DNA of 64,000 bases from NCBI GenBank assembly GCA_016342685.1, contig JAEINU010000004.1, positions 310,001 through 374,000 of the forward strand, written 5' to 3'. Below the pieces are notes generated by a model that worked only from the letters and a program-made list of their open reading frames with translations, did no database searches and had not been told where the DNA came from. The translations under genes were made by a program, and so were the position numbers. This DNA comes from Bacteroidales bacterium (lineage in GTDB: Bacteria; Bacteroidota; Bacteroidia; Bacteroidales; UBA12077). Shown here piece after piece: positions 42,140-57,300 of this stretch (positions are counted from its first letter, which is position 1; every line of letters begins with the position of its first letter).

Positions 42140-42547
42140 ATGGCAAAGTATAACGAAACAGAAACAACAACAGCAGTTAACCTAATAGTTGCAGGTACTG
42201 AGATAACGGGAGATGTAAATTCAAATAGCGATATTCGAATTGATGGATCAATGACAGGAAACTTAAAGACTACAGGTAAAATTGTAATTGGTGAAACAGG
42301 CAAAGTGAATGGTGAGATAGACTGTAAAAACTCAGAAGTTTTAGGAGAAGTTCATGGAAAGATTAAAGTTGGCGAATTACTTTCCTTAAAAGCTACTGCT
42401 AAAATATTTGGTGATATAATTACTAAAAAGTTAGCTATTGAACCAGGCTCTAAATTTACAGGAAACTGCAAAATGGGCAATGAATCACTAAAAGATGTCG
42501 GAGCAGACGGATCAAAATTCGGAAACAAAGAACAAAAAAGCGCATAG
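42140..42547 (+). CDS. Bactofilin-family polymer-forming protein
   Basis: 135 aa. After a short flexible N-terminus a bactofilin beta-helix spans about residues 15-115, with the typical repeats NLIVAGTEITGDVNSNSDIR, IDGSMTGNLKTTGKIVIGET and GEVHGKIKVGELLSLKATAK. Bactofilins polymerise without nucleotide into filaments that scaffold cell-wall or envelope machinery. In Bacteroidota a bactofilin gene commonly begins the F-type ATP synthase cluster, and that order is kept here. Its last 53 bp overlap the start of atpZ in another frame, which couples the two translationally. The tail (DGSKFGNKEQKSA) is shaped by that overlap. Confidence 0.93.
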   Translation: MAKYNETETTTAVNLIVAGTEITGDVNSNSDIRIDGSMTGNLKTTGKIVIGETGKVNGEIDCKNSEVLGEVHGKIKVGELLSLKATAKIFGDIITKKLAIEPGSKFTGNCKMGNESLKDVGADGSKFGNKEQKSA

Positions 42548-42740
42548 CGATTTAGCCAAATACTCAGCAATCGGATTTCAGATGATTGCAATAATAGTAA
42601 TTGGTGTTCTAGGTGGAATAAAACTCGACAAATGGATGTCAGGAGTTGAATTCCCTGTTTTTACAATGGTGTTATCAATTTCTAGTGTGATATTTGCAAT
42701 ATATTACGCAATTAAGGATTTTCTAAAGCCAAATAAATAA
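42495..42740 (+). CDS. atpZ: AtpZ/AtpI-family F-ATPase accessory protein
   Basis: 81 aa with a charged N-terminus and two transmembrane helices (about 24-46 and 52-75). The motif FQMIAIIVIGVLGGIKLDKW matches AtpZ/AtpI proteins: a small-residue helix then Gly-Lys/Arg-x-Leu-Asp. Family members are encoded at the head of F-type ATP synthase operons and help c-ring assembly or Mg2+ uptake. The start lies inside the bactofilin gene (53-bp overlap); a later Met is not available before the helix except in SAIGFQM, so the overlap appears real. The stop overlaps the next start (TAATG). Confidence 0.85.
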   Translation: MSEQTDQNSETKNKKAHSDLAKYSAIGFQMIAIIVIGVLGGIKLDKWMSGVEFPVFTMVLSISSVIFAIYYAIKDFLKPNK

Positions 42741-43132
42741 TGCAAACATTTAAAAAATTTATTATAAAGGAGCTAGTTTTTACTAGCTCTATTGCTATTA
42801 TTGCATATATCTTATTTCAAACAAAACTTAGCGAAGATTATTTGCCCGTATTTTGGTTATTGTTAGGATTAATAGCTGTATTAACGGGAATAATGCATTT
42901 TTCTTTACTTCAGATTAGTGATAAAAACGCAGCGAAGTTTTCAATAAAATTCATGACTTTTTCCGGAGTTAAAATGATGATTTATTTAGTTACGATAACT
43001 AGTTATGTGTTTTTGTATTCAGCATCAGCCAAATTTTTCTTGATTTCATTTTTCATTCTTTATTTTTTATACACTGCTTTTGAAGTTTTTCAAATAGTGA
43101 AATATTTAAAAGCTAATAAAAGTCATAAATAA
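42740..43132 (+). CDS. Four-helix membrane protein at the AtpI position
   Basis: 130 aa with four predicted transmembrane helices (about 12-28, 35-57, 72-93, 97-118) and short loops, ending in a basic tail. No clear family motif is visible. In Bacteroidota F-type clusters a similar small four-helix protein stands between atpZ and atpB, so it is probably the local ATP synthase subunit I-like accessory. Start overlaps the atpZ stop by one base, which indicates coupled translation. In this genome the next gene is not atpB but the first gene of a V-type ATPase operon, 382 bp away. Confidence 0.65.
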   Translation: MQTFKKFIIKELVFTSSIAIIAYILFQTKLSEDYLPVFWLLLGLIAVLTGIMHFSLLQISDKNAAKFSIKFMTFSGVKMMIYLVTITSYVFLYSASAKFFLISFFILYFLYTAFEVFQIVKYLKANKSHK

Positions 43133-43301
43133 AAAGAATATAAGTCATTATTTTTGAAATCTTGAAATTAATTATTCAATAATTCCATCCACCACAAACC
43201 GCTTTTTGAGAGAATACTCGATTGTATATATTTGCAATTGAAAGCCTTACCTAGAATGTGTTTTTAAACAGAGCCCGTTGTTAATAATTTAACACTAACT
43301 G

Positions 43302-43333
43302 TTTGGACATTATTATCTACTAATTTACATTTG
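43302..43333 (+). promoter_or_regulatory. Promoter P1 of the V-type ATPase operon
   Basis: TTTG at 43302-43305 and TACATTTG at 43326-43333 match both Bacteroidota promoter elements exactly with a 20-bp spacer. Transcription would begin near 43340, giving a leader of about 175 nt. Confidence 0.65.
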
Positions 43334-43444
43334 TCGTCACCGAACATTTTTTTAAGTAATGTGTTCGTGTAATTAAATGATAAAAAGATATAGATAGTTT
43401 AAAATCAGATTAATGAATTTAATTATCTAATAATGTAAATATTT

Positions 43445-43475
43445 GTTGGTAACTTAATTTAAGTTATTAGATTTG
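43445..43475 (+). promoter_or_regulatory. Promoter P2 of the V-type ATPase operon
   Basis: GTTG at 43445-43448 and TAGATTTG at 43468-43475 fit the -33/-7 pattern with a 19-bp spacer. Start would be near 43482, giving a leader of about 33 nt before the subunit E gene. Confidence 0.6.
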
Positions 43476-43514
43476 TAACGCATTTTTATATAAAAACAAT
43501 AAGATCATTTAGAT

Positions 43515-44132
43515 ATGGAAAATAAACTTCAGGAATTAACTCAGAAGCTTTACAACGAAGGGGTCGAAAAAGCGAATGTTGAGGCAGAAAAAATTCTCGC
43601 TGAAGCAAAATCTGATGCTGAAAAATTAAAGCAAAATGCAGAAAAAGATGCTCAAAAAATCATAGCTGATGCTAAGCAAAAATCTGCGGAGATTAAAAAG
43701 AACGTTGATGCAGAATTAGCCCTTGCTTCAAAGCAATCGATAAGAACTGTAAAGCAGCAAGTTACAGATATGATCGTTAGCAAAGTTATTGATGAGCCGA
43801 TAAAAAAAGCATTCGATGACGTTAAGTTTGTTAAGGAAATTATCGAAGCTGTAGTAAAAAACTGGAATCCACAGAAAAATGAAGCAATTGATCTTTCTGT
43901 TCTACTTCCTGCAGATCTTGAAAAAGAATTTGCAAAGTTCTTTACAGCAAAATCCGGACAAGAATTAAATGCAAACCTCGAATTAAGTTTCAGTGATTCT
44001 TTAAAAGGAGGATTCAAAGTTGGCCCAGTTGATGGGTCTTATAAAATTAGTTTTAGCGAAGAAGATTTCGAAAACTTTTTCAAATCTTACTTACGTCCAA
44101 AAACAATTGAAATGTTATACCCAGGAGAATAG
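43515..44132 (+). CDS. ntpE: V/A-type ATPase subunit E (peripheral stalk)
   Basis: 205 aa. The first 85 residues form a long charged helix rich in Ala, Glu and Lys (EKANVEAEKILAEAKSDAEK, KDAQKIIADAKQKSAEIKKN), the coiled-coil arm of the peripheral stalk. The C-terminal globular part (about 95-205) includes KGGFKVGPVDGSYKISFSEE, a typical E-subunit end that binds the A3B3 head. It opens the seven-gene operon E-DUF2764-A-B-D-I-K and begins 40 bp after promoter P2. No separate subunit G/H gene, the usual stalk partner of E, is present in the operon. Confidence 0.9.
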   Translation: MENKLQELTQKLYNEGVEKANVEAEKILAEAKSDAEKLKQNAEKDAQKIIADAKQKSAEIKKNVDAELALASKQSIRTVKQQVTDMIVSKVIDEPIKKAFDDVKFVKEIIEAVVKNWNPQKNEAIDLSVLLPADLEKEFAKFFTAKSGQELNANLELSFSDSLKGGFKVGPVDGSYKISFSEEDFENFFKSYLRPKTIEMLYPGE

Positions 44133-44134
44133 TT

Positions 44135-44986
44135 ATGCCGCGTAATTATTATCATTATTTCGTAGCAGGTTTGCAGGATATCTTTCTGGATGACACAGAG
44201 GTTCATTTTCCAATGCTTGATTTTAAGCAGGAGTTAAAGGATCATCTTAAACCAGAAGATTATAAACTAGTAGAACTGTTATTTTTACCTTACGATAACC
44301 AAAATCTTCTTAAGTTCTTGAACGAAGATTACGAGAATCACAATGATTTAGGTGCATTTTCATTTCAGGAATTTGAAGTAGAATTTTCCGACGAACGACT
44401 TGGTATTCTTCCATCATATATGTACAAATTTGTTGAATTGTATAAAGATGAAGAAGAATCAAAAGGTCTTGTTAATAGTTGGGAAAACCTACTTACAGAG
44501 ATGTATTTTGATTATGTTTTAAAAACAAAAAACGCGTTTTTAAAACAATGGTTCGAGTTTAGCCAAAATCTTAACAACATACTTATTGGACATAATTGTC
44601 GCAAATATAATCTTGAAGTAGAAAAACAGCTGATAGGTGATAATTTCGTGTCGAATGCTATACTTAATAGTAATGCTAAAGATTTTGGTTTAGAAGTAGA
44701 ACTTCCATATGTATCAGATATCATAACGCTTGCTGATAATGAAAATTTATTAGCTCGTGAAAAAGGTATCGATCAACTAAAGTGGGATAAGGTAGAAGAG
44801 ATTACTCTATTCGATTATTTTACAATTGAAGTTGTATTAACGTATACAATAAAACTTGATATAGCATACCGTTGGTTAGAACTCGATGAAGAAACCGGTC
44901 GTGAAATGTTTGCTAAAATTATTGATAATTTAAAATCTGGTTTTGAATTTCCTAAAGAATTTGCAATAAATGGAAAAAACAAATAA
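44135..44986 (+). CDS. DUF2764-family V-ATPase protein (subunit C position)
   Basis: 283 aa, soluble and mostly helical, beginning MPRNYYHYFVAGLQDIFLDD, the DUF2764 hallmark. It is rich in acidic residues, with long helices around EMYFDYVLKTKNAFLKQWFE and TLFDYFTIEVVLTYTIKLDI. In Chlamydia and spirochetes a comparable unnamed gene sits between E and A in the same seven-gene V-type operon. Since no subunit C (AC39) gene is present, I infer it fills that collar role joining rotor and membrane ring; this has not been shown. It lies 2 bp after the E stop and its end abuts the A start. Confidence 0.82.
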   Translation: MPRNYYHYFVAGLQDIFLDDTEVHFPMLDFKQELKDHLKPEDYKLVELLFLPYDNQNLLKFLNEDYENHNDLGAFSFQEFEVEFSDERLGILPSYMYKFVELYKDEEESKGLVNSWENLLTEMYFDYVLKTKNAFLKQWFEFSQNLNNILIGHNCRKYNLEVEKQLIGDNFVSNAILNSNAKDFGLEVELPYVSDIITLADNENLLAREKGIDQLKWDKVEEITLFDYFTIEVVLTYTIKLDIAYRWLELDEETGREMFAKIIDNLKSGFEFPKEFAINGKNK

Positions 44987-44987
44987 A

Positions 44988-46742
44988 ATGACAAAAGGAT
45001 ACGTAGCGGGGATCATAGCAAACCTTGTGTTTGTGGAGGTTGATGGACCTGTTCAACAAAACGAAATTTGTTACATTGATTTAGAAGGAACTAAATTGAT
45101 GGCTGAGGTTATCAAGATTAATGGAACTCAGGCATATGTTCAGGTTTTCGAAAGTACTCGTGGACTTAAAGTAAATCACACCGTTGAATTTACCGGACAT
45201 ATGTTAGAAGTAACACTTGGTCCTGGAATCTTATCGAAAAACTACGACGGTCTACAAAACGACCTTGATAAAATGGATGGTGTTTTCTTAAAACGCGGAG
45301 AACATACAAATCCATTAGAAGATGATAAAAAATGGGAATTTAAACCATTAGCTAAAGCAGGTGATGTTTTAGAAGCTGGTGGTTGGTTAGGCGAAGTGAA
45401 AGAAAACTGGATGCCTCACAAAATTATGGTTCCATTTAAATTCGAAGGTAAATACACTGTTAAAAGTGTTGTTGAAGCTGGAGAATATACAATTCTGGAT
45501 AATATTGCAGTTGTTACTGATGAAAAAGGTAAAGATATTGATCTTACTATGACTCAGAAATGGCCTGTTAAGTTAGCTATTAAAGCATACAAAGAAAAAC
45601 CACGTCCATTTAAAATGTTGGAAACAGGTGTTCGAGTTATCGATACATTAAATCCAATTGCTGAAGGTGGTACAGGATTTATCCCTGGTCCATTTGGAAC
45701 TGGTAAAACAGTATTGCAACATGCCTTAGCTAAACAAGCTGAAGCTGATTTGATTATTGTTGCTGCTTGTGGTGAACGCGCAAATGAGGTTGTAGAGATA
45801 TTTGCAGAATTCCCTGAGTTAGATGATCCTCGCACAGGACGTAAACTTATGGAACGTACAACGATTATAGCAAATACATCGAATATGCCGGTTGCTGCGC
45901 GTGAAGCATCAGTTTATACTGCAATGACTTTAGGAGAGTATTACCGAGCAATGGGATTAAAAGTATTATTACTTGCCGATTCAACTTCTCGTTGGGCTCA
46001 GGCTCTTCGTGAAATGTCGAACAGAATGGAAGAATTACCAGGTCAGGATGCATTCCCAATGGATTTACCTGCAATTATTTCTAACTTTTATTCTCGTGCA
46101 GGATTTACTTATTTAAATAACGATGCAACAGGTTCAATTACATTTATCGGAACGGTATCACCTGCAGGTGGTAATTTAAAAGAGCCGGTAACTGAATCTA
46201 CTAAAAAAGCAGCTCGTTGTTTTTATGCACTTTCTCAGGATCGCGCCGATAGCAAGCGTTATCCAGCGATTGATCCTTTAGATTCTTATTCTAAGTACGC
46301 TGAATATCCAGAATTAGAAGAATATTTTAGAGCAAATATAGATCCAGAATGGCCAGAGAAAATCCAATTAGCAAGAGACATTCTTATTCGAAGTAGAGAA
46401 GTTGCTGAACAGATTAATATTTTGGGTGATGATGGTGTTCCTGTTGAATATCATGACAGATTCTGGAAAGGTGAAATAATCGACTTCGTAATCTTACAGC
46501 AAGATGCATTTGATAAAATTGATTGTTCTGCTTCGTTAGAGCGTCAAAAATATATGTTAAACTGGGTTCTTGATATTTATCACACTAAATTCTCATATGA
46601 ATCATTTGAAGATGTTGGTTCTTATTTCAAAAAGATGATCAACATAATGAGACAAATGAATTATGCGATATTTGAATCAGATGATTTCAAAGGTGGAGAA
46701 AAAGAACTTAATTCATTAATCGAAGAAAGAAAGACAGCATAA
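44988..46742 (+). CDS. ntpA: V/A-type ATPase catalytic subunit A
   Basis: 584 aa from the ATG at 44988 (MTKGYVAGIIANLVFVEVDG), preferred to an ATG at 44970 because it gives the family's usual N-terminus and avoids overlap with the DUF2764 gene. The catalytic Walker A is GPFGTGKT (about 234-241). The non-homologous insertion that marks A subunits against F-type beta is present (about 115-195). CGERANEVVEIFAEFPEL carries the catalytic Glu region and LLLADSTSRWAQALREMSNR the Walker B and stator-facing part. A3B3 forms the head that couples ATP to rotation of D and the K ring. The stop overlaps the B start (TAATG). Confidence 0.97.
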   Translation: MTKGYVAGIIANLVFVEVDGPVQQNEICYIDLEGTKLMAEVIKINGTQAYVQVFESTRGLKVNHTVEFTGHMLEVTLGPGILSKNYDGLQNDLDKMDGVFLKRGEHTNPLEDDKKWEFKPLAKAGDVLEAGGWLGEVKENWMPHKIMVPFKFEGKYTVKSVVEAGEYTILDNIAVVTDEKGKDIDLTMTQKWPVKLAIKAYKEKPRPFKMLETGVRVIDTLNPIAEGGTGFIPGPFGTGKTVLQHALAKQAEADLIIVAACGERANEVVEIFAEFPELDDPRTGRKLMERTTIIANTSNMPVAAREASVYTAMTLGEYYRAMGLKVLLLADSTSRWAQALREMSNRMEELPGQDAFPMDLPAIISNFYSRAGFTYLNNDATGSITFIGTVSPAGGNLKEPVTESTKKAARCFYALSQDRADSKRYPAIDPLDSYSKYAEYPELEEYFRANIDPEWPEKIQLARDILIRSREVAEQINILGDDGVPVEYHDRFWKGEIIDFVILQQDAFDKIDCSASLERQKYMLNWVLDIYHTKFSYESFEDVGSYFKKMINIMRQMNYAIFESDDFKGGEKELNSLIEERKTA

Positions 46743-48067
46743 TGGAAACAAAAGCATTTCAAAAAATCTATACTAAACTCACCCAGGTTACAAAAGCGAC
46801 ATGTTCTTTAAAAGCCACTGGAATTGGTTATGAAGAAATGGCAATTGTGCACGGCAGATTAGCACAGGTAGTTAAAATTATTGGTGATAATGTAACGCTT
46901 CAGATTTTCTCTGGAACAGAAGGTATTCCAACAAATGCAGAGGTTGTATTCTTAGGTCGTCCTCCTGTATTAAAAGTGGGCGAAGAATTATCAGGTAGAT
47001 TCTTCGATGCATATGGTGATCCAATTGATGGAAGACCAGCTATTGAAGGTGAAGAGCGTCAGATTGGTGGACCATCGGTAAATCCTGTTCGTAGAAAGCA
47101 ACCATCGGAATTTATTCCAACTGGTATTGCTGGTATCGACTTAAACAACGCATTAGTAACAGGTCAAAAAATTCCATTCTTTGCCGATCCTGATCAGCCA
47201 TATAACCAAGTAATGGCAAACGTAGCACTTCGTGCCGAAGCCGATAAGATTATTCTTGGTGGTATGGGATTAACAAACGATGATTATTTATATTATAAGA
47301 ATGTATTCGAAAATGCAGGTGCGTTAGATCGTATTATCAGTTTTGTAAATACAACTGAAAATCCACCAGTAGAACGTATTCTTGTTCCAGATATGGCTTT
47401 GACAGCTGCTGAATACTTTGCAGTAGATAAACATCAAAAGGTATTGGTTCTTTTAACAGATATGACACTTTATGCAGATGCTTTAAGTATTGTGTCTAAC
47501 CGTATGGATCAGATTCCATCGAAAGATAGTATGCCGGGATCACTTTATAGTGATTTAGCTAAGATTTACGAGAAAGCAGTTCAGTTTCCAGATGGTGGTT
47601 CAATTACCATTATTGCGGTAACAACCTTATCGGGTGGTGATATTACTCACGCTATTCCCGATAATACGGGTTATATTACTGAAGGACAGTTATTCTTGCG
47701 TAAAGATACAGATATAGGTAAAGTTATTGTTGATCCATTCCGTTCATTATCTCGTCTGAAGCAGTTAGTTATTGGTGAGAAAACTCGTTCGGATCATCCA
47801 CAAGTGATGAATGCTGCGATTCGTTTATATGCCGATGCTGCAAATGCTAAAACAAAACAGGAAAATGGTTTCGACCTTACTGATTACGATGAGCGTTCTT
47901 TAAAATTTGCAAAGGAGTATTCTAATAAGCTATTGGCTATTGATGTAAATATCGAGGTTGACCAAATGCTTGATACAACTTGGGGCTTATTTAATGAGCA
48001 CTTCGAACCTGCTGAGGTAGGTATCAAGAAAGAATTTGTTGATCAGTATTGGCCAAAAGAAGACTAG
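46742..48067 (+). CDS. ntpB: V/A-type ATPase regulatory subunit B
   Basis: 441 aa. It resembles subunit A but has lost the P-loop: the equivalent position reads TGQKIPFFADPDQPYNQ, as expected for the non-catalytic B subunit. Family motifs include ATGIGYEEMAIVHGRLAQVV near the N-terminus, GRFFDAYGDPIDGRPAIEGE, LLTDMTLYADALSIVSNRMD, PGSLYSDLAKIYEKA and GSITIIAVTTLSGGDITHAI. The Arg finger region lies in LFLRKDTDIGKVIVDPFRSL SRL (conserved PSLSRL-like). Start overlaps the stop of A, so equal amounts of A and B are favoured. An 84-bp gap with an imperfect hairpin follows, the only long gap before the D gene. Confidence 0.96.
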   Translation: METKAFQKIYTKLTQVTKATCSLKATGIGYEEMAIVHGRLAQVVKIIGDNVTLQIFSGTEGIPTNAEVVFLGRPPVLKVGEELSGRFFDAYGDPIDGRPAIEGEERQIGGPSVNPVRRKQPSEFIPTGIAGIDLNNALVTGQKIPFFADPDQPYNQVMANVALRAEADKIILGGMGLTNDDYLYYKNVFENAGALDRIISFVNTTENPPVERILVPDMALTAAEYFAVDKHQKVLVLLTDMTLYADALSIVSNRMDQIPSKDSMPGSLYSDLAKIYEKAVQFPDGGSITIIAVTTLSGGDITHAIPDNTGYITEGQLFLRKDTDIGKVIVDPFRSLSRLKQLVIGEKTRSDHPQVMNAAIRLYADAANAKTKQENGFDLTDYDERSLKFAKEYSNKLLAIDVNIEVDQMLDTTWGLFNEHFEPAEVGIKKEFVDQYWPKED

Positions 48068-48145
48068 TTTAAAGTTTAAAGTTTCGAGTTGGAAAGAAAT
48101 GAATTGTTCTTGAAGCCAAAACCTTTAACTTTTAACCTTTAACTA
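48065..48145. repeat. Imperfect long inverted repeat between subunits B and D
   Basis: The arms at 48065-48084 and 48126-48145 can pair at about 16 of 20 positions. They are made of repeated TTTAAAG/CTTTAAC words (AAGTTTAAAGTTTAAAGTTT and TTTAACTTTTAACCTTTAAC). Such low-complexity stem-loops between genes occur as dispersed repeats in Bacteroidota chromosomes. Here it splits the V-type operon into E-A-B and D-I-K parts and may affect message stability. It has no long T-run, so it is not a typical terminator. Confidence 0.5.
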
Positions 48146-48151
48146 AATATT

Positions 48152-48754
48152 ATGGCGATAAAATTCCAATATAATAAAACATCATTACAGCAGTTAAATA
48201 AGCAACTTAAAGCTCGTTTAAGAGCTCTTCCTACACTGCAAAGTAAGGAAGCAGCCTTAAGAATGGAAGTTAAGCGTGCGAAAAATCAATCCGAAGAATT
48301 ACTCGAAAAGTTGGATGCTCGTATGAAAGAATACGATGCAATGGTTCGACTTTGGGGAGAGTTCGAGAGTGATTTAATTTCTGTGAAAGATGTGAAAATG
48401 ATCGTTAAGAAAATTGCTGGTGTAAATACACCCATCTTAGAAGATGTAATTTTCGAGATCAAGGAATTTAGCCTTTTCAATAAACCTAGTTGGTTTTTAA
48501 GTGGAGTACAAATCATAGAATCATTAGTTAAGATTTCTATTGAGAGTGAATTTTTCTTAAGGAAAATGGAGCTTTTAGATTTTGCACGTAAGAAAACAAC
48601 GCAAAAGGTTAATTTATACGAGAAGGTACAAATTCCAGGATACGAAGAAGCAATTTCGAAAGTAAAACGATTTCTTGAAGATGAGGAAAATCTTTCCAAA
48701 TCATCTCAAAAAATTGTTAAGAAACGACAAGAAAATAATAAGGAGGCTGCATAA
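48152..48754 (+). CDS. ntpD: V/A-type ATPase subunit D (central rotor)
   Basis: 200 aa. The two long terminal helices that form the rotor coiled coil are seen at about 5-70 (YNKTSLQQLNKQLKARLRAL, LRMEVKRAKNQSEELLEKLD) and 125-195 (LVKISIESEFFLRKMELLDF, KTTQKVNLYEKVQIPGYEEA). Between them is a short hydrophobic hairpin. The protein transmits rotation from the A3B3 head to the membrane ring. No subunit F gene, its usual small partner, is found in the operon, which is also the case for the short V-type operons of Chlamydia and Borrelia. The stop overlaps the start of subunit I. Confidence 0.93.
   Translation: MAIKFQYNKTSLQQLNKQLKARLRALPTLQSKEAALRMEVKRAKNQSEELLEKLDARMKEYDAMVRLWGEFESDLISVKDVKMIVKKIAGVNTPILEDVIFEIKEFSLFNKPSWFLSGVQIIESLVKISIESEFFLRKMELLDFARKKTTQKVNLYEKVQIPGYEEAISKVKRFLEDEENLSKSSQKIVKKRQENNKEAA
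48740..48746 (+). promoter_or_regulatory. Strong Shine-Dalgarno sequence before subunit I
   Basis: AAGGAGG lies 7 bp before the ATG at 48754, inside the end of the subunit D gene. Full Shine-Dalgarno matches are uncommon in Bacteroidota, where initiation depends little on them, so this one stands out. It supports the ATG at 48754. Confidence 0.6.
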
Positions 48755-50739
48755 TGATTACTCCAATGATGAAATATTCTTTCCTAATCTATCACAAGGA
48801 GTATATAACTTTTCTTGAGAAGCTTCAAGAATTGGGAGTACTTCATATTATAGAGAAAAAGAAAGATGTAGACGAAAATATCAAATTTTCGTTGCAGCAA
48901 ATCAGTGAAATAAATAAAGCTTTAAAATTCTTGGTAAGTAGAAATCAGGAGGAGAATCCAGAAACCTTAGAAATGAGTGGAATGGAATTGGTTGAAAAAA
49001 TCAAGACTCTGAACGATGAAATATCTTCAATAGAACAAGAGCAGCTTAGTCTGAATAAAGAAATTCAAAAAGCTGAGCCTTGGGGCGATTTTACTGATGA
49101 TATGCATGAGAAATTTGCGAATCTTCATATTAAACTAAAATTCTTTGTTTGTAGCGAAAAAAGATTTGATCCTGAATGGAAAGAAAAGTTCCCTCTTGAA
49201 ATAGTTAATGTAAAAGATGGACTTGCTTATATAGTAGCTTTCCAACACGGAGCCAATCCTATTGATATTGATGCAGAAGAAGTAAAACTTCCTGAGCATA
49301 CAATTTCTGAGTTGCTTAAGAAAAACGAAGAAAATAAAATTCGTTCTGAAGAGATTACTACAAATTTTGATGATTTTGCTAAGAAATATCAAGATGTATT
49401 AAAAGAAACTCGTCAGAAACTGCAAGCAAAAGCAGACTTTGATTTAGCATTAAATCATACTGAAAAAGAAGCAGAAGAGAAAGTAATGCTTTTGGAAGGT
49501 TGGATTCCAACAGAGAAAAAAGAAGAGCTTGAAAAAGTACTTGAAGAGCAAAATGTATATTATGTTTCTGTTCAGCCAAATACAGAAGATAAAGTGCCAA
49601 TAAAGCTTAAGAATAGTAAGTATTCAAAATTATTCGAACCAATTAGTGAATTATTTGATCTGCCCGATTATCAGGAGTTTGACTTAACACCATTTTTTGC
49701 ACCATTTTTCATGCTTTTCTTTGGTTTTTGTGTTGGTGATGCCGGGTATGGAATTCTATTTTTGGTTGGAGCTACTATTTTTAAATTTAGGGCGAAGAAA
49801 AATATGAAGCCAATATTGTCTTTGCTTCAGATATTAGGAGTTTCAACAATAATACTAGGAGCTGTTTCGGGCACTGTATTTGGAATCAATTTAATTGATA
49901 CTGGATATGTTCTAAACGAAGTTTCTATATCTGGATTAAAAGCTTTGTTACCTTCAGATGTTTTGGCAAATATTCAACCAATAATTGGAGAACATTTTGC
50001 AACTAAAGATGCGTATGTTAAAGCTTTAACTGCAATGCTTGGTGAAGAAAACTTTTTGCTTTATAAAACGGATTTATTAAAGAATGCAATTTCTGATTTT
50101 AATTTTCTAAACAAGTTTAGATATTTATTATTAGATGCAAATAGCATGTTTAATTTTGCTCTTATACTTGGTGTAATTCAAATTCTTTTTGGAATATGTG
50201 TTAGAGCAGCAAATAAAATTAAGCAATTTGGATTCCTTCATGGCTTATCAAGTATTGGTTGGGCGATGGTATTTATTGTTCTTATAGTTTTTATGGGAGG
50301 CGATAGTGCAGGAATATTAAGTTTAGAAGAATATAAAATTCTTTTTTATGCTTTATTAGGTCTAAGTGGAGTCTTTATTATATTCTTTAATAATCCATCG
50401 GCAAGTATTTTTGCAAGTTTTGGTGGAGGATTATATGATATTTATGGTACGGCAACAGGAGTGTTTGGTGATTTATTATCTTATATTCGTTTATTTGCTT
50501 TAGGAATTTCAAGTGCAATTTTAGGTTTAGTTTTTAATCAAATTGCAGTACAGTTTTTAGAGATCAAATATATAGGTTGGTTGCCATTTGTATTATTATT
50601 AGTATTTGGACACGGAATAAATATATTTTTAGCATCGCTTGGGGCGTTTATACATCCAATGCGATTAACATTTGTAGAATTTTATAAAAATGCCGGCTTC
50701 GTAGGAGGCGGTAAACAGTATAAACCTTTTTCAAAATAA
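48754..50739 (+). CDS. ntpI: V/A-type ATPase subunit I (membrane stator, subunit a)
   Basis: 661 aa. The N-terminal half (1-305) is soluble and helical with coiled-coil segments (LNDEISSIEQEQLSLNKEIQ) and binds the peripheral stalk. The C-terminal half (about 310-655) has about eight transmembrane helices starting with DLTPFFAPFFMLFFGFCVGD AGYG, a family signature. Near the end, GDLLSYIRLFALGISSAILG contains the essential Arg that faces the K-ring glutamate, and FGHGINIFLASLGAFIHPMR LTFVEFYKNAGF is the usual C-terminal signature. Together with the K ring it forms the ion channel. Translation is coupled to D (TAATG overlap). Confidence 0.95.
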   Translation: MITPMMKYSFLIYHKEYITFLEKLQELGVLHIIEKKKDVDENIKFSLQQISEINKALKFLVSRNQEENPETLEMSGMELVEKIKTLNDEISSIEQEQLSLNKEIQKAEPWGDFTDDMHEKFANLHIKLKFFVCSEKRFDPEWKEKFPLEIVNVKDGLAYIVAFQHGANPIDIDAEEVKLPEHTISELLKKNEENKIRSEEITTNFDDFAKKYQDVLKETRQKLQAKADFDLALNHTEKEAEEKVMLLEGWIPTEKKEELEKVLEEQNVYYVSVQPNTEDKVPIKLKNSKYSKLFEPISELFDLPDYQEFDLTPFFAPFFMLFFGFCVGDAGYGILFLVGATIFKFRAKKNMKPILSLLQILGVSTIILGAVSGTVFGINLIDTGYVLNEVSISGLKALLPSDVLANIQPIIGEHFATKDAYVKALTAMLGEENFLLYKTDLLKNAISDFNFLNKFRYLLLDANSMFNFALILGVIQILFGICVRAANKIKQFGFLHGLSSIGWAMVFIVLIVFMGGDSAGILSLEEYKILFYALLGLSGVFIIFFNNPSASIFASFGGGLYDIYGTATGVFGDLLSYIRLFALGISSAILGLVFNQIAVQFLEIKYIGWLPFVLLLVFGHGINIFLASLGAFIHPMRLTFVEFYKNAGFVGGGKQYKPFSK

Positions 50740-51231
<492 letters not shown>

Positions 51232-51261
51232 GAAACTATAATAAAATAATTTCGTATGAAG

Positions 51262-51293
51262 AGACAGTGCAATTAAATGCACTGTCTTTTTTT
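51262..51293 (+). terminator. Terminator of the V-type ATPase operon
   Basis: AGACAGTGCA and TGCACTGTCT form a perfect 10-bp stem with a 6-nt loop, followed by an unbroken T-run. It lies 30 bp after the K stop and isolates the V-type operon from atpB. Confidence 0.9.
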
Positions 51294-51327
51294 GTACGAT
51301 CAATAAGCATTTTAACTATTTATTGTA

Positions 51328-51335
51328 TAAATTTG
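51328..51335 (+). promoter_or_regulatory. Promoter -7 element for atpB
   Basis: TAAATTTG matches TAnnTTTG exactly, 21 bp before the atpB ATG. No good -33 match lies at 19-22 bp. A promoter is needed here because a strong terminator lies just upstream. Confidence 0.5.
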
Positions 51336-51356
51336 TAAGTATTCAAAATACACGTT

Positions 51357-52457
51357 ATGTATAAAATCCTTTTAAATATTTCAATTGCATTATTCTTAAT
51401 TCTTTCAATCCAAGAAAATAATTTCGCAAGCGAAAATCCAACAGAAAAGGACCCTGAACATTCAGAAACACACAAAGAAAAGGAAAAATTTAATCCTGGC
51501 ACTTTTATTTTCGACCACATAAAAGATGCTTATAGTTGGCATTTATTTACCTATAAAGGTCATCATGTTTCCATTCCACTTCCGATTATTGTTTACAGTA
51601 AAACTTCTGGATTATCTATGTTTTGGTCATCTAAACTAGGACATGGTCATACTTATAAGGATTTTAAAATTGCACTCGAAGGTGATAATAAAGATAAGAT
51701 TGTAGAAGTAGACTATCATGGAGAATTTGTTGATCGGCCATTTGACATTTCTATTACTAAGAATGTTCTAGCAATTATGTTAAGCGGTGCATTAATGATG
51801 CTCATATTTATTTCAATCGCAAAATCATATACTAGAAGAGAAAATCTACCACCTAAAGGATTGCAATCTTTACTTGAACCCCTTATTCTTTTTGTACGAG
51901 ACGATATTGCAAAAAACAGTATTGGGGAAAAACATTACGAAAAATATACTCCTTTTCTGCTCACTATATTCTTTTTTATTTTATTAAATAATTTACTGGG
52001 GTTAGTTCCACTTTTCCCAGGGGGAGCCAATGTAACTGGAAACATAACTGTTACAATGGCATTAGCATTATTTACTTTTATTATAACAACCATAACAGGT
52101 AATAAAAATTACTGGAAAGACATATTTAATACGCCTGGAGTACCTTGGTGGTTAAAATTACCAATACCATTAATACCATTTATTGAACTTGTAGGTGTTA
52201 TCATAAAACCATTTGTTTTAATGATCCGATTATTTGCTAATATTTCAGCGGGTCATATTATCGTATTAGGTTTTTTTAGTTTAATATTCATATTCGGAAA
52301 TATGGATCCTATATTAGGGTACGTAGTTTCTCCTGTATCTATTGCATTTACAATTTTTATGTCAATTTTGGAACTATTGGTGGCATTTATACAGGCTTAC
52401 GTATTTACAATATTATCAGCCATTTATTTTGGAATGGCATCAGAAGAAGGACATTAA
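51357..52457 (+). CDS. atpB: F-type ATP synthase subunit a
   Basis: 366 aa. An N-terminal signal-like helix (LLNISIALFLILSIQENNFA) and a soluble His-rich extension (about 25-130) precede the five-helix core; this long form is normal in Bacteroidota. The core has LLNNLLGLVPLFPGGANVTG, and the essential stator Arg lies in KPFVLMIRLFANISAGHI, facing the c-ring Glu. The last helices contain LVAFIQAYVFTILSAIYFG, the usual subunit a ending. It forms the proton half-channels. In related genomes it directly follows the small AtpI-position gene, which here lies 8 kb upstream across the V-type operon. Confidence 0.95.
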   Translation: MYKILLNISIALFLILSIQENNFASENPTEKDPEHSETHKEKEKFNPGTFIFDHIKDAYSWHLFTYKGHHVSIPLPIIVYSKTSGLSMFWSSKLGHGHTYKDFKIALEGDNKDKIVEVDYHGEFVDRPFDISITKNVLAIMLSGALMMLIFISIAKSYTRRENLPPKGLQSLLEPLILFVRDDIAKNSIGEKHYEKYTPFLLTIFFFILLNNLLGLVPLFPGGANVTGNITVTMALALFTFIITTITGNKNYWKDIFNTPGVPWWLKLPIPLIPFIELVGVIIKPFVLMIRLFANISAGHIIVLGFFSLIFIFGNMDPILGYVVSPVSIAFTIFMSILELLVAFIQAYVFTILSAIYFGMASEEGH

Positions 52458-52487
52458 TAAGTTTATATTCACTTTAAAGTTAACATT

Positions 52488-52745
52488 ATGTTTACATTAG
52501 GTATTATTTTACAAGTAGCTGCAAACTTTGCAATTGCTGAACTGGGAGCTGCAATTGGTGCAAGTATAGCGGCTGTAGCTGCTGCTTTTGGTATCGGAAA
52601 AATTGGTAGTAGTGCTATGGAATCTATAGCACGTCAACCAGAAGCTGCTGGCGACATTAGATCAAACATGATTGTTGCTGCTGCTCTTATTGAAGGAGTT
52701 GCATTCTTTGCAATTGTTGTATGTTTCCTTATTTTATTTATTTAA
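52488..52745 (+). CDS. atpE: F-type ATP synthase subunit c
   Basis: 85 aa, two transmembrane helices joined by the polar loop SIARQPEA that contacts gamma and epsilon. The ion-binding Glu69 lies in AAALIEGVAFFAIVV. The first helix is glycine/alanine rich (AAIGASIAAVAAAFGIGKIG) and lacks the Gln at the ion site, and Glu69 is followed by Gly rather than Ser or Thr, so the Na+ signature of Ilyobacter-type c subunits is absent and H+ coupling is expected. A strong hairpin begins 8 bp after the stop. Confidence 0.95.
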   Translation: MFTLGIILQVAANFAIAELGAAIGASIAAVAAAFGIGKIGSSAMESIARQPEAAGDIRSNMIVAAALIEGVAFFAIVVCFLILFI

Positions 52746-52753
52746 GGAATTTG

Positions 52754-52785
52754 CTTTACAGAGCAGCGGTTGGCTGCCTGTAAAG
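52754..52785 (+). promoter_or_regulatory. Strong stem-loop after atpE (attenuator or mRNA stabiliser)
   Basis: CTTTACAG-A-GCAGC pairs with GCTGC-CTGTAAAG around a GGTTG loop (13 bp with one bulged A), followed by TTTTATTAATT. The structure looks like a terminator but lies inside the operon between atpE and atpF. A leaky terminator or 3'-end stabiliser here would raise atpB-atpE message over downstream genes, matching the need for many c subunits per enzyme. Function is inferred. Confidence 0.6.
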
Positions 52786-52809
52786 TTTTATTAATTAAAG
52801 TGTTTTGTT

Positions 52810-53304
52810 ATGGAACTTATAAAACCAGACCTTGGATTATTAATTTGGATGTTACTTTCTTTTAGTATCGTGCTTTTTGTGCTGATTAAATTTGCATGGA
52901 AACCAATCTTAAAAGCCTTAAAAGATCGTGAAAAATCAATAAGCCACAGTCTTATGGCTGCGAAAAGGGCAAAAGAAGAGATGGCTAAAATAGAATTCGG
53001 TAATGAGAAAATTACTGCTTTAGCCAAAATAGAAAGGGATAATCTTTTAAAAGAAGCTAAAGAAATAAAGAATAAAATTATCGAAGAGGCTAAGGAAGAT
53101 GCAAAGATTGAAGCGTCTAAAATTATCGAGAAAGCTGTTCAAAGTGTTGAGCAGGAAAAGAACCTAGCAATAAACGAAATAAAAAATCAGATAGCTTCTT
53201 TATCAATTGATATAGCAGAGAACATTTTAAAACAGAAACTTGGAGATCAATCAAATCAAAAAGAATTAATTGATGATTTAGTGAAAAACATCGATCTAAA
53301 TTAG
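52810..53304 (+). CDS. atpF: F-type ATP synthase subunit b
   Basis: 164 aa. One N-terminal transmembrane helix (about 8-28, LLIWMLLSFSIVLFVLIKFA) with the family motif KFAWKPILKALKDREKSI, then a continuous charged helix to the end that forms the peripheral stalk dimer (KIERDNLLKEAKEIKNKIIE, ASKIIEKAVQSVEQEKNLAI). The C-terminus DLVKNIDLN meets delta. Only one b gene is present, so a homodimer is expected. It follows the atpE hairpin by 25 bp and precedes atpH by 13 bp. Confidence 0.95.
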   Translation: MELIKPDLGLLIWMLLSFSIVLFVLIKFAWKPILKALKDREKSISHSLMAAKRAKEEMAKIEFGNEKITALAKIERDNLLKEAKEIKNKIIEEAKEDAKIEASKIIEKAVQSVEQEKNLAINEIKNQIASLSIDIAENILKQKLGDQSNQKELIDDLVKNIDLN

Positions 53305-53317
53305 TCGGAGAGAATTT

Positions 53318-53884
53318 ATGTATCAAAGTCAAATAAATGTTCGTTACGCAAAGTCTCTATTTCTTGTAGCTAAGGAAAACAAGAAATTAGATGAGATAAC
53401 AAATGATATAAGTTTGTTATTAAATTTTTTTCAGGAGGTCGACGATTTTAAAATGCTGGTTGAGCATCCGACAATTAAGCCGTCCGAAAAATCAACGATA
53501 TTAAAAGCGTTGTTTGAAGATAAATTTGAAAAGCACACAATGTCCTTTCTGCTTCTTGCTGTTAAAAACAAACGCGAAAACCACCTTAAAAACATATGTT
53601 TAAATTTCCTTGAGATGTATCGAAAAGACCAAGGAATAAAACAGGCTGTTTTAACAACGGCATTTGAGTTATCAGAAAAAGAAAGAATAAATATAAAAGA
53701 ATCAATACAAAAAAAATTTAGTGCAACTGTTGAATTAACAGAGAAAGTGAATCAAGATTTAATAGGGGGAATGATTATTCAAGTTGATGATAAACAACTT
53801 GATCTGAGTGTTGCCAAACAAATTCAAAATCTAAGAAACGATTTTCTTAAAATTGATTTCAACAATAAAAAAAGATTTAAATAA
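53318..53884 (+). CDS. atpH: F-type ATP synthase subunit delta
   Basis: 188 aa. The N-terminal six-helix domain (about 1-110) begins INVRYAKSLFLVAKENKKLD and includes MLVEHPTIKPSEKSTILKAL. The C-terminal part carries the family signature around VNQDLIGGMIIQVDDKQLDL SVAKQIQNLR. Delta caps the F1 head and holds the b stalk. Spacing to atpF (13 bp) and atpA (16 bp) shows a continuous operon. Confidence 0.95.
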   Translation: MYQSQINVRYAKSLFLVAKENKKLDEITNDISLLLNFFQEVDDFKMLVEHPTIKPSEKSTILKALFEDKFEKHTMSFLLLAVKNKRENHLKNICLNFLEMYRKDQGIKQAVLTTAFELSEKERINIKESIQKKFSATVELTEKVNQDLIGGMIIQVDDKQLDLSVAKQIQNLRNDFLKIDFNNKKRFK

Positions 53885-53900
53885 TTTTAAAATATAAACT

Positions 53901-55484
53901 ATGGCTGGAATTAAACCCGGAGAAGTTTCTCAAATTTTAAAACAAGAATTAGAAGGCTTTACAACAAATTCCGAACTTGAAGAAGTTGGTAGTGTTTTAC
54001 AAGTGGGTGATGGAATTGCAAGAATTTACGGTTTAAGCAATGTGCAGTCCAATGAATTAATCGAATTCGAAAGCGGTGAACGGGGTATTGTATTAAATTT
54101 GGAAGAAGATAATGTTGGTGCGGTACTTTTAGGATCATCTGAAGAAATTAAAGAAGGCGATAAAGTAAAGAGGACAGGAAAAATTGCTTCAATTAATGTT
54201 GGTGATAGCCTGTTAGGGCGTGTTATTAACACATTGGGTGAGCCGATCGATGGTAAAGGAGCTTTGAACGGTGATCTTTATGAAATGCCATTAGAGCGTA
54301 AGGCCCCAGGAGTAATTTATCGTCAACCCGTTACTGAACCAATTCAAACAGGTTTAAAATCAATTGATGCTATGATTCCTATTGGACGAGGTCAGCGCGA
54401 GTTGATTATTGGCGATCGTCAAACTGGGAAAACAGCCATTGCAATTGATACTATTATTAATCAGAAAGAATTTTACGATAAAGGAGAACCTGTATATTGT
54501 ATTTATGTTGCTATTGGACAAAAAGGTTCAACAGTAGCAAATATTGTAGAGACATTAAAAAAATATGGAGCACTTGATTATACTGTAATAGTTATGGCAA
54601 CAGCCGCAGATCCTGCCGCTTTGCAGTTTTATGCTCCTTTTGCTGGAGCTTGTATAGGGGAATATTTTAGAGATACAGGTCGCTCAGCTTTAATTATTTA
54701 CGATGATTTATCTAAACAAGCAGTTGCTTATCGTGAAGTTTCATTATTACTTCGTCGTCCACCAGGTCGTGAAGCATATCCTGGTGATGTATTTTATTTG
54801 CACTCAAGATTACTAGAGCGTGCTGCCAAAATTATCCAATCGGATAAGATTGCAGCAGAAATGAATGATCTTCCAGAATCGTTAAAAGGAAAAGTAAAAG
54901 GAGGAGGATCTTTAACAGCTCTTCCAATTATTGAAACGCAAGCTGGAGATGTTTCCGCATATATTCCTACCAATGTAATTTCTATTACTGATGGACAAAT
55001 TTTCTTAGAATCGGATTTATTTAATGCTGGTGTTAAACCTGCAATTAACGTTGGTATTTCTGTATCTCGTGTTGGAGGTAATGCACAAATTAAATCGATG
55101 AAGAAAGTAGCCGGTACGCTAAAACTTGATCAGGCACAATATCGAGAATTAGAAGCATTTTCCAAGTTCGGTTCTGATTTAGATGCTGCAACGATGGCTG
55201 TATTAGATAAAGGAGCTAAAAATGTTGAGATATTAAAGCAAGGCCAGTATACACCATTATCGGTTGAAAAGCAGATTGCAATAATTTATTGTGGAACACA
55301 AGGTTTATTGGAAGACGTTCCTGTTGAGAAGGTAAATGAATTTGAAGTTGATTTCCTTGATGTTATGGAAATGCAGCATTTAAGTATTCTTGAAACATTA
55401 AAATCGGGAGTATTAACTGAAGAGGTTACGGATACTTTAAAGATGGTAGCGAAAGAAGTGTCGGTTAAGTATAAGGTTGATTAG
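53901..55484 (+). CDS. atpA: F-type ATP synthase subunit alpha
   Basis: 527 aa, slightly longer than the E. coli protein. It has an N-terminal helix that binds delta, a beta-barrel (about 25-95), Walker A GDRQTGKT at 171-178 (Gln, as in non-catalytic alpha), [20 protein letters not shown] with Walker B, and the Arg finger region [15 protein letters not shown]. The C-terminal helical domain is complete. The alpha3beta3 head needs subunit beta (atpD), which is not in this window; in Bacteroidota atpD and atpC commonly lie at another place in the chromosome. Confidence 0.97.
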
Positions 55485-55500
55485 GTAAGTTAAAGGCATT

Positions 55501-56379
55501 ATGGGTAATTTAAAAGAAATACGTACGCGGATTACATCTGTTAAATCTACAAAGCAAATTACAAGTGCTATGAAGATGGTTTCTGCTGCAAAATTGAAAA
55601 AAGCACAGGATGCAGTTATTAATTTAAGACCATATGCAGGAAAACTTCATCAAATATTATTTCACATAAACCAAAGCATAGAGCAGGAGGAAGAGAGCCT
55701 ATATTCGAGAGATGGGATTCCTGAAAAGATTTTGATTGTATCGGTAACTTCTAATAAAGGGCTTTGTGGCGCGTTTAATGCAAACGTAATTAAACAGGTT
55801 GCTAAATTGGTTAATGAGGATTTTGTTGGGGAAAATAAAGCTGGAAATGTTTCAGTTTATTCAGTTGGAAAGAGGGGGACAGAGTTTTATCAATCAAAAG
55901 GATTTAAAATGCTTGGATTTAATAATGAAATCCTTGACGATTTGAATTTCTCAAATTCAATCCCCATTATTGAAGATGTGATGAATCGTTATGTTGAAAA
56001 AGAATTCGACAAGGTTGTTTTAGTTTACAATAGGTTTAAAAATGCTGGGGTTCAAATTCTAACATCCGAACAATATTTGCCAATTCAATTGCCTAACGAT
56101 ATTGAGTCTGAAGAGAGCTTCGATTATATATTTGAGCCTACTAAAGAATGTATTGTGCAAGAGTTGATTCCAAAATCATTGAAAATACAATTTTACGAAG
56201 CAATGTTAGAGTCTTTGGCGGCAGAGCATGGTGCAAGGATGACGGCTATGCACAAAGCAACTGATAATGCGACAGGATTAATACGAGATTTACAGTTAAC
56301 ATATAATAAAGCAAGACAGTCAGCTATAACAAACGAAATTCTTGAAATCGTTGGGGGTGCCGAAGCTTTAAGTAAGTAA
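55501..56379 (+). CDS. atpG: F-type ATP synthase subunit gamma
   Basis: 292 aa. The N-terminal rotor helix starts with GNLKEIRTRITSVKSTKQIT SAMKMVSAAKLKKAQ, the family hallmark. The central Rossmann-like part includes VTSNKGLCGAFNANVIKQVA, and the C-terminal helix contains AAEHGARMTAMHKATDNATG and YNKARQSAITNEILEIVGGA. Gamma rotates inside the alpha3beta3 head and docks on the c ring. It is the last gene of the cluster and is followed by a bidirectional terminator. Confidence 0.96.
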   Translation: MGNLKEIRTRITSVKSTKQITSAMKMVSAAKLKKAQDAVINLRPYAGKLHQILFHINQSIEQEEESLYSRDGIPEKILIVSVTSNKGLCGAFNANVIKQVAKLVNEDFVGENKAGNVSVYSVGKRGTEFYQSKGFKMLGFNNEILDDLNFSNSIPIIEDVMNRYVEKEFDKVVLVYNRFKNAGVQILTSEQYLPIQLPNDIESEESFDYIFEPTKECIVQELIPKSLKIQFYEAMLESLAAEHGARMTAMHKATDNATGLIRDLQLTYNKARQSAITNEILEIVGGAEALSK

Positions 56380-56406
56380 AAGCAAAGAAAGTATTTTATA
56401 AATAGA

Positions 56407-56434
56407 AAAGGCGATCTGTATTGATCGCCTTTTT
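56407..56434. terminator. Bidirectional terminator after atpG
   Basis: AAAGGCGATC and GATCGCCTTT form a perfect 10-bp stem with a 6-nt loop and T-runs on both strands. It lies between atpG and the convergent papain-family gene. Confidence 0.88.
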
Positions 56435-56448
56435 ATTATTAGAATAAA

Positions 56449-57300
56449 TTACTCGTAAACTACGTAAGCTTCTCTCCAGTATTTAGCAATGATTGCATAA
56501 TCAATCCATCCAAAACCGTCAGTTGCCCAGCTTGTTCCCCATGAGTTCATGAATTTAAATGCATTTTTAGCATCATCATAACCAACACATGCATAGCAAT
56601 GTCCACCATAAACACGACCTTTTGCAGTTGTAATAACTTGGTCGTAACCTAGGTTCATGTATGCACCATAAACAGAACCAGCAACAACTAGAATTTTACC
56701 AGCAGCTAATTGTGCTTTAATAGCATCAACAGTAACAGGAACGGTTGCATAAGAGCTAATTTTATAATTAGCAGCAGCAGCAGTTTGAGTTGCATTTGGC
56801 ATTACGTCACAATCAGTATCAGTATAAGGCATGTCATTCCAAAGACAAACACCTTGGTTAACTAATAAATTTAAACCTGTAGTTGTGTAAGATCCAGAAT
56901 TACAGTCGCTTGAAGCCTTAACTTGATTGTAAACATATTCAGGACTAAAGATGTTAGTACTTGTACTATATGTTCCACCATTTGTGTTTTGATAACTTGT
57001 ACTGCGGGTTGCATAAGTTGTACCCCAAGCAACGCAAGAACCTTCACCACCTTGATTTCCTACTGGAGGAACCACCAAATTAACTGACGTTGGCAATGTT
57101 TTTACACTTTCATATTTTGCAACCGGTATCTTAGCATACTCTGCCTCAGGAAGCAAATTACAACCAAAACTGTAAGGAATAACTTCCTCTGTTTGAATAG
57201 GTGTAACAGTATCATTGTCTTTTTGACAAGAATTAACAACAAGCATAGTTACTAATGCGATCGATAAAATTATCGATGCACGAAATAAATTTTTCTTCAT
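56449..57300 (-). CDS. Papain-family (C1) cysteine protease lipoprotein
   Basis: 283 aa. Lipoprotein signal peptide with acyl-Cys25 (MLVVNSCQKD), then a short linker and a C1-type peptidase domain. The catalytic set is complete: Gln83 and Cys89 in GNQGGEGSCVAWG, His234 in YGGHCYACVGYDD, and Asn252 in FMNSWGTSWATDGFGWIDY. The usual pro-region is missing or reduced to about 50 residues, so it may not be made as a classical zymogen. Extra cysteines (Cys47, Cys in SDCNSG, CLW, DCDV) could form disulfides. As a lipoprotein it should act in the periplasm or at the cell surface. It is a single-gene unit that converges on atpG. Confidence 0.88.
   Translation of the reverse strand: MKKNLFRASIILSIALVTMLVVNSCQKDNDTVTPIQTEEVIPYSFGCNLLPEAEYAKIPVAKYESVKTLPTSVNLVVPPVGNQGGEGSCVAWGTTYATRSTSYQNTNGGTYSTSTNIFSPEYVYNQVKASSDCNSGSYTTTGLNLLVNQGVCLWNDMPYTDTDCDVMPNATQTAAAANYKISSYATVPVTVDAIKAQLAAGKILVVAGSVYGAYMNLGYDQVITTAKGRVYGGHCYACVGYDDAKNAFKFMNSWGTSWATDGFGWIDYAIIAKYWREAYVVYE

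Follow-up and report, generated by a model that had tools for sequence, protein, structure and literature searches.

A V-type ATPase operon nested within the F-type ATP synthase gene cluster of a Bacteroidales family

Many Bacteroidales carry both an F-type ATP synthase and a V-type ATPase. In ProAD, several rotary ATPases per genome are common, with an H+ type accompanied by a Na+ type in 1,137 of 1,388 such genera (PMC11738941), and a table of 2008 lists Bacteroides species with both F-type and V-type enzymes (PMC2359735). In Bacteroides fragilis, the V-type operon (PTOS_002482-88) has seven genes, the second of which encodes a DUF2764 protein, and its set of accessory subunits is smaller than in V-type enzymes of other bacteria; V-type mutants become nearly undetectable after growth in deoxycholate, one of the strongest bile-acid fitness defects, and the authors, who describe the function of the enzyme as unknown, propose that Na+ drives ATP synthesis once the proton gradient has been damaged by bile (PMC10197588). 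Here we analyse a 64,000-nt window of a Bacteroidales genome (G000:C4:310001-374000; 4.77 Mb in 54 contigs), in which a V-type operon stands inside the F-type gene cluster (positions 42140–56379 of the window). Coexistence of the two enzymes is already known; nesting we have not found reported, and a literature search for nested or adjacent F-type and V-type operons returned no such report. We consider it probable that the whole V-type operon relocated once, in the family ancestor, into the atpI–atpB gap, where it has since been inherited, the two operons forming separate tandem units.

The locus comprises 16 genes, all on the plus strand: a bactofilin–atpZ–atpI block, seven V-type genes and six F-type genes. 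The V-type operon (43515–51231; subunit E, a DUF2764 protein, then subunits A, B, D, I and K, hereafter vE, vA and so on) separates the first block from atpB-E-F-H-A-G. Gene order was mapped with hidden Markov models (HMMs) over 110 loci plus the window, and the source genome's family, here termed f1, was sampled in 25 genomes from two genera, source included; the assemblies include metagenome-assembled genomes, in which contig ends hide adjacency. The vK–atpB junction lies on one contig in 23 of these 25 genomes, contig ends coming first in G017 and G021, and the atpI–vE junction is present in 16 of 25, with seven more cut by contig ends. Subunit A has a single match in each of the 23 f1 genomes with any match. 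Two f1 members share their coordinates with deposited sequences: G004:C177 with PKTC01000412 (Marinilabiliales bacterium BM718) and G016:C4 with JAHLLG010000006 (Bacteroidetes bacterium MAG82).

Beyond f1, an uninterrupted bactofilin–atpZ–atpI–atpB order is found in many other families (for example, L113, L114, L116, L138, L183, L184, L195, L198 and L200), homologues of the AtpI-position gene directly precede atpB in the outgroups, and the V-type operon, where present, lies elsewhere and not between atpI and atpB. An earlier note on this stretch, made from the sequence, had stated that the bactofilin block normally runs into atpB in Bacteroidota; this holds for many families of the order, but six outgroup loci (L110, L115, L123, L140, L142 and L144) have atpD–atpC before atpI/atpB instead. 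The vK–atpB order is absent from 31 outgroup V-type loci that extend 1.9 kb or more beyond vK and from 47 outgroup F-type loci; a further seven of the 38 outgroup V-type loci end near or before vK, too short to show what follows. The flanks of 47 atpB loci outside f1, f132, f153 and f19 (G623), short in several cases, contain no V-type genes. An apparent vB beside bactofilin in L116 is not vB; its sequence reads as what we take to be Rho. Because the outgroup clusters are uninterrupted, their V-type operons lie elsewhere and the junction is family-wide, the nested order is derived, dates to the ancestor of the family and has been inherited since.

The earlier note had also proposed trees of both enzymes alongside the comparison of gene order. 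Family f1 forms one clade in the V-type tree (42 rows, ten of the starting set having been left out) and in the F-type tree (51 rows), each with a Shimodaira–Hasegawa-like approximate likelihood-ratio (SH-aLRT) support of 100, and both trees split it into the same two genera. The note's view that an insertion or rearrangement had split an ancestral F-type operon is thus borne out by the 23 vK–atpB junctions, the outgroup order and the single clade in both trees. In all 13 V-type and F-type genes, the nonsynonymous rate is below the synonymous rate in three comparisons with relatives, some of the synonymous values being saturated.

Every gene lies where the note had placed it. The upstream block opens with bactofilin (42140–42547; Pfam PF04519, 98.8 bits), which overlaps atpZ (ATPase_gene1; 42495–42740; PF09527, 48.3 bits) and is followed by the AtpI-position membrane protein (42740–43132), placed by the HMM mapping and without a named-family match in the family profile searches. 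The V-type operon then encodes subunit E (43515–44132; NCBIfam NF002424, 99.8 bits, below the cut-off of 241), the DUF2764 protein (44135–44986; PF10962, 219 bits), the catalytic subunit A (44970–46742; NF003220, 752 bits, cut-off 470), subunit B (46742–48067; NF002555, 692 bits, cut-off 431), the central-shaft subunit D (48152–48754; NF002565, 212 bits, cut-off 189), the a-type stator subunit I (48754–50739; PF01496, 62.9 bits, cut-off 30.7; NF004429, 253 bits, below the cut-off of 799) and the rotor-ring subunit K (50773–51231; phmmer to 2bl2, E 1.1e-21; NF005124, 112.5 bits, below the cut-off of 127). K is duplicated, PF00137 matching it in two stretches and 2bl2 over residues 5–148 of 152. 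V-type A and B above cut-off, together with a membrane subunit I and a duplicated K, mark the enzyme as V/A-type. The F-type genes that follow encode subunits a (atpB, 51357–52457; TIGR01131, 136.7 bits, cut-off 102.6), c (atpE, 52488–52745; TIGR01260, 56.3 bits, cut-off 43.95), b (atpF, 52810–53304; TIGR01144, 101.9 bits, cut-off 65.5), delta (atpH, 53318–53884; TIGR01145, 125 bits, cut-off 57.5), alpha (atpA, 53901–55484; TIGR00962, 782 bits, cut-off 484) and gamma (atpG, 55501–56379; TIGR01146, 299.8 bits, cut-off 194). The genes for beta and epsilon (atpD–atpC) are absent from the cluster and lie about 78 kb upstream on the same contig (around G000:C4:272045-273931), giving all eight of the eight F-type subunit genes in the genome, six of them at the locus.

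The V-type operon had been called complete, a description that fits only the short seven-gene Bacteroidota form: V-type subunit F (PF01990) has no match genome-wide, with six of 14 control genomes positive, and the second gene encodes DUF2764. Nor does the source genome contain a match to the AC39 subunit C (PF01992). We propose that DUF2764, which looks like a diverged V-type stalk subunit C (AC39/d), fills this place, because it is encoded in a V-type operon lacking any other subunit C and because some of its relatives match PF01992. Among 20 relatives, seven match at E values up to 5 (best 2.9e-7); ten were searched singly, and five of these match at E values from 3e-7 to 0.008. The DUF2764 protein of L101, from the sister genus in f1, is the sole one above cut-off (30.5 bits, cut-off 29, residues 49–245). 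The protein in the window matches the DUF2764 profile and not PF01992, a sequence search of DUF2764 against the PDB gave no matches, an AlphaFold2 model from six sequences reached a mean predicted local distance difference test score of 40, and our literature search found no paper joining DUF2764 with AC39. One structure would test the proposed identity.

The V-type operon carries control signals at both ends. Two copies of TAnnTTTG, which we take to be the Bacteroidota −7 element, precede vE on the plus strand: a distal one, TACATTTG (43326–43333), and a proximal one, TAGATTTG (43468–43475), 47 nt before vE. The proximal element recurs 43–50 nt before vE in 15 of 15 aligned f1 members. Upstream of the distal element lies an operator-like palindrome, GTTA-N6-TAAC (43280–43293), whose centre is 39 nt before it. 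The exact palindrome, mostly within TGTTA-N6-TAACA, occurs 5′ of vE in eight of 21 f1 loci, or eight of the 18 that are testable (at L087, L096 and L104 the sequence upstream of vE is very short or missing); the other ten testable members lack it. Five of the eight bear two exact copies 17 nt apart. In seven of the eight the centre is 37–40 nt before the distal TAnnTTTG, and in L098, the remaining one, this spacing is provided by a degenerate second copy. The exact palindrome also precedes six of 36 V-type operons outside f1, at other spacings, and was found in none of 18 f1 atpB upstream regions, 44 outgroup atpB upstream regions and 15 bactofilin upstream regions. Across 1.56 Mb of loci, a total that counts overlaps and the sites described here, it has a background frequency of 0.027 per kb; in 200 shuffles the palindrome turned up in 0.32 f1 loci on average and never in more than two. 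Allowing one mismatch makes the pattern uninformative (vE: 12 of 21 in f1, 15 of 36 in outgroups; atpB: six of 18 in f1, 13 of 44 in outgroups; bactofilin: six of 15). We read the layout as reminiscent of CRP-type activator sites. The TGTTA-N6-TAACA site precedes vE in the window and 13 other loci, a candidate operator standing before V-type operons in several families.

At the downstream end, an intrinsic terminator is predicted between vK and atpB, a hairpin with a T run (51259–51293, plus strand). A hairpin followed by T5 is present there in 23 of 23 testable f1 members; over the 23 aligned hairpins its 9-bp helix is 95.6% paired, and seven of the nine pairs show two-sided changes, whereas slid versions of the helix reach at most 59.5% pairing, the sequences having been pre-chosen as hairpins. 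The same gap contains TAnnTTTG in 23 of 23 f1 members, in the window TAAATTTG (51328–51335, plus strand), the −7-like element of a putative atpB promoter. Mononucleotide shuffles of these gaps yield hairpins (stem of at least 7) in 5% and TAnnTTTG in 14%. The suggestion that the V-type unit has its own promoters and terminator is thereby supported across the family, by conserved signals and a covarying helix. The accompanying suggestion, that two neighbouring ion motors would let the cell co-regulate them, is not supported: rather than an unbroken F/V operon, all 23 members have a predicted stop and a fresh promoter element between the two, and in the f1 members that carry the palindrome it lies on the V-type side only. 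Since it brings its own control region, the V-type unit looks like a self-contained neighbour, more likely a cassette than part of a control unit shared with the F-type genes.

The two enzymes are predicted to differ in their coupling ion. On alignment to the Enterococcus hirae Na+ ring (2bl2), the window's K keeps L61, T64, Q65, Q110 and E139, in what we take to be the residue numbering of the K and c rings. This LTQQE set is complete in 54 of 60 K sequences, including all complete f1 ones; of the other six, that of L162 is cut off and five from outside f1 differ at one or two positions. The F-type c subunit has I and G where the 1yce Na+ ring has Q32 and S66, as do 71 of 71 c sequences, some of them from the same genome. 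NqrF, the sole NQR subunit sought, scores 641 bits (cut-off 295), and the genome probably has a Na+-pumping NQR. Taken together, the K ligands, the c-ring residues and NqrF suggest a V-type enzyme running on sodium and an F-type enzyme running on protons, with a likely primary Na+ pump.

These observations are consistent with the following course of events. A whole, self-contained V-type operon would have moved once, in the f1 ancestor, into the short atpI–atpB gap, and would then have been inherited in place. The cell encodes two rotary machines, the F-type predicted to be driven by H+ and the V-type by Na+, and, depending on its direction of rotation, the latter would either make ATP from a Na+ gradient or spend ATP to expel Na+. 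Transcription of the V-type genes may start at the proximal promoter, joined in some members by a distal one linked to the operator and its presumed regulator; it would end at the intrinsic terminator, with the F-type genes restarting from their own promoter.

V-type genes also lie in or against F-type genes in two other families. In f132, both sampled genomes (G489: L203:2971-14601 and L162:8870-20000 with L202, on two contigs; G801: L210) have a V-type operon plus a Ca2+/Na+ antiporter gene (TIGR00367, 208 bits, cut-off 179.65) inside the F-type operon between atpB and atpE, in the order atpD-atpC ... atpB–antiporter–V–atpE-F-H-A; the contig of G801 ends after vA. The three gaps atpB–antiporter, antiporter–vE and vK–atpE of G489 contain no hairpin with a T run, and TAATTTTG lies 36 nt before its vE. 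A 56-nt inverted repeat, 98% identical, flanks the G489 insert; as the cause of the insertion it was set aside, the atpB–antiporter junction of the sister genome G801 being only about 10 nt long. At the f1 junctions a repeat search over 43000–51450 gave weak pairs only (71–88% alike), none clearly flanking, so no mobile-element footprint was recognized there. Approximately unbiased (AU) tests reject f1 plus f132 as one clade (V-type, p 1.2e-9; F-type, p 0.0014). Among the kin of f132 in the V-type tree, the V-type flanks covered in G577 contain no F-type genes, and the F-type operons of G720 and G522 are uninterrupted over the available sequence; given this and the rejected clade, the two nestings appear to have arisen separately. 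In f153, one genome, G597 (L217:2027-19204), has the V-type operon and atpD running away from each other, separated by a single GNAT-domain gene.

One reading holds that such closeness is itself selected. If it were, the V–F adjacency would act as a dual-ion power cassette, inherited and expressed together. Pointing that way are the three families with three arrangements, the AU tests, the lack of hairpins in the G489 gaps, and, in another family, G662 (L187:5408-7006), a CitMHS_2-family transporter, presumably NhaD-like, that fills the atpI–atpB gap. A rough Poisson estimate for three close landings also favours it (1e-4 to 3e-3), but this assumes 30–100 relocations and ten slots in 3,500 genes, with slots, events and the meaning of 'close' set after the cases had been seen; leaving out the case that prompted the analysis, the other two yield 0.003 to 0.03. 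Against linkage, just four of the 95 non-f1 genomes with both enzymes, among the matches listed, have them within 20 kb (G489, G597, G724 and G623); four more have them far apart on one contig and 87 on different contigs, where some adjacency may be hidden (G526 and G679, whose V-type positions are absent among the matches listed, were left out). Within f153, V- and F-type genes are several genes apart in G724 and about 235 kb apart in G668. The f1 units are parted by a conserved terminator and separate promoters, and G489 has its own −7-like element before vE. We hold selected linkage to be unlikely. About as improbable, in our judgement, is a bolder version, in which a two-ion power locus has been built again and again in Bacteroidales, a Na+ V-ATPase operon being drawn in among the H+ F-ATP synthase genes or up against them. 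Were it true, such a locus would pay where the proton gradient is unreliable, because the two motors would be inherited as a linked pair and expressed side by side, with the TGTTA-N6-TAACA site as a lineage-specific switch on the V-type genes and the f132 antiporter inside the F-type operon as part of the same scheme. On the other account, F-type operon junctions tolerate inserts, V-type operons move often and the three cases are harmless chance. The neighbours of V-type operons, as read from the map, are mostly common only within families; unrelated genes interrupt F-type operons elsewhere, namely a PDDEXK_3-type open reading frame (ORF) between a and c in L117 (assigned by clustering with an L162 ORF), a DUF6591 protein gene between a and c in L219 and a gene for a protein with a type IX secretion system tail before alpha in G597 (L217); and promoter and terminator signals flank the f1 insert. 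Three separate cases are, however, more than the rough estimate would lead one to expect by chance, and in f1 the order has lasted through both genera. We give this account an even chance, and lean towards tolerated landings over selected linkage.

The origin of the operon can be questioned as well. The f1 ancestor may have received it from another Bacteroidales, landing at the F-type cluster. The patchy occurrence of the V-type enzyme, with subunit A in at least 153 of 393 genomes of the order and in eight of 392 of a phylum sample (source genome included), would suit such a transfer, but the V-type and F-type trees agree on the f1 clade and its two-genus split and indicate no odd donor, and we think transfer unlikely, if worth serious consideration. 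An order ancestral to Bacteroidales and lost elsewhere would explain why every testable f1 member has the vK–atpB junction; it is contradicted by the 31 V-type and 47 F-type outgroup loci without it, by the different slots used in f132 and f153 and by the rejected clade, and is very improbable. Misassembly at 43.1–43.5 or 51.2–51.4 kb, which the earlier note had named as a threat, has nothing that we found in its support and is a negligible prospect: besides the window, 15 other assemblies share the atpI–vE junction and 22 the vK–atpB junction, and an order common to the family is not an assembly error of the source genome. A single relocation in the family ancestor has weaknesses of its own, and several findings weigh against it or its details. 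The deep branching of the V-type tree is unresolved, so that it does not tell relocation inside the genome from acquisition out of another Bacteroidales; G011 and G015, both in f1, carry other genes before vE; and ion use rests on few residues. A generic pattern scan did not list the V-type terminator (this sigma-70/terminator scan performed at chance, with 64 promoter-like sites against 65.6 expected and 8 terminator-like sites against 6.7 expected), and in L088 the hairpin scan picked a hairpin other than the conserved one. Among 23 outgroup loci, eight have TAnnTTTG no more than 40 nt from atpB and ten no more than 150 nt from it, which makes it plausible, though no more than that, that the operon landed just 5′ of an atpB promoter already in place. 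The loci form a series, from separate to nested V- and F-type operons, that can be used to test the effect of linkage on expression.

Several further observations concern the V-type operons and the borders of the locus. Across 44970–51231 of the window, compared with L092 and L094, G010 is the closer match for A and B and G012 for I and K, and the trees differ there, which suggests recombination within the V-type operon. Five f1 members (L091, L092, L095, L097 and L160) have a 23S_rRNA_IVP-type ORF between vB and vD, identified by Pfam in L092 and by clustering in the other four; the vB–vD gap of G489 holds a PDDEXK_3 ORF (L162:16331-16714). Thirty of 80 V-type-bearing genomes, single-contig ones included, have no F-type alpha at E 1e-100 (from the 80, five genomes with partial V-type matches and fifteen whose V-type loci were already in the set were put aside before counts of position), and genomes such as G713 and G719 are apparently V-only Bacteroidales. 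Upstream of the locus, 39062–41974 encodes a 970-residue protein with no Pfam family and a weak TolB-propeller match, relatives of which lie 5′ of bactofilin in several congeners. Downstream, a papain-family cysteine peptidase gene (56449–57300, minus strand) converges on atpG, and between the two is a hairpin (56406–56433) that the generic scan called terminator-like on the minus strand.

Among known systems, the V-type Na+-ATPase of E. hirae (NtpK, 2bl2) has a ring subunit with which the K of the window aligns over nearly the full length, keeping all five ligands; unlike in that enzyme, no V-type F or ordinary AC39 gene was found in the source genome, and we know of no nesting within F-type genes in E. 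hirae. The F-type cluster of the window has the genes and order of other Bacteroidales families (bactofilin–atpZ–atpI–atpBEFHAG), from which it differs by the seven V-type genes between atpI and atpB. ProAD and the 2008 survey record coexistence, as here, and in their available text describe no operon inside another (PMC11738941, PMC2359735). The V-type enzyme of B. fragilis shares the seven genes with DUF2764 second, the duplicated K with Na+-coordinating residues and the coexisting F-type enzyme; there, the locus numbers of the F-type genes (PTOS_001821-29) are far from those of the V-type operon (PTOS_002482-88), whereas here the V-type operon lies inside the F-type cluster (PMC10197588).

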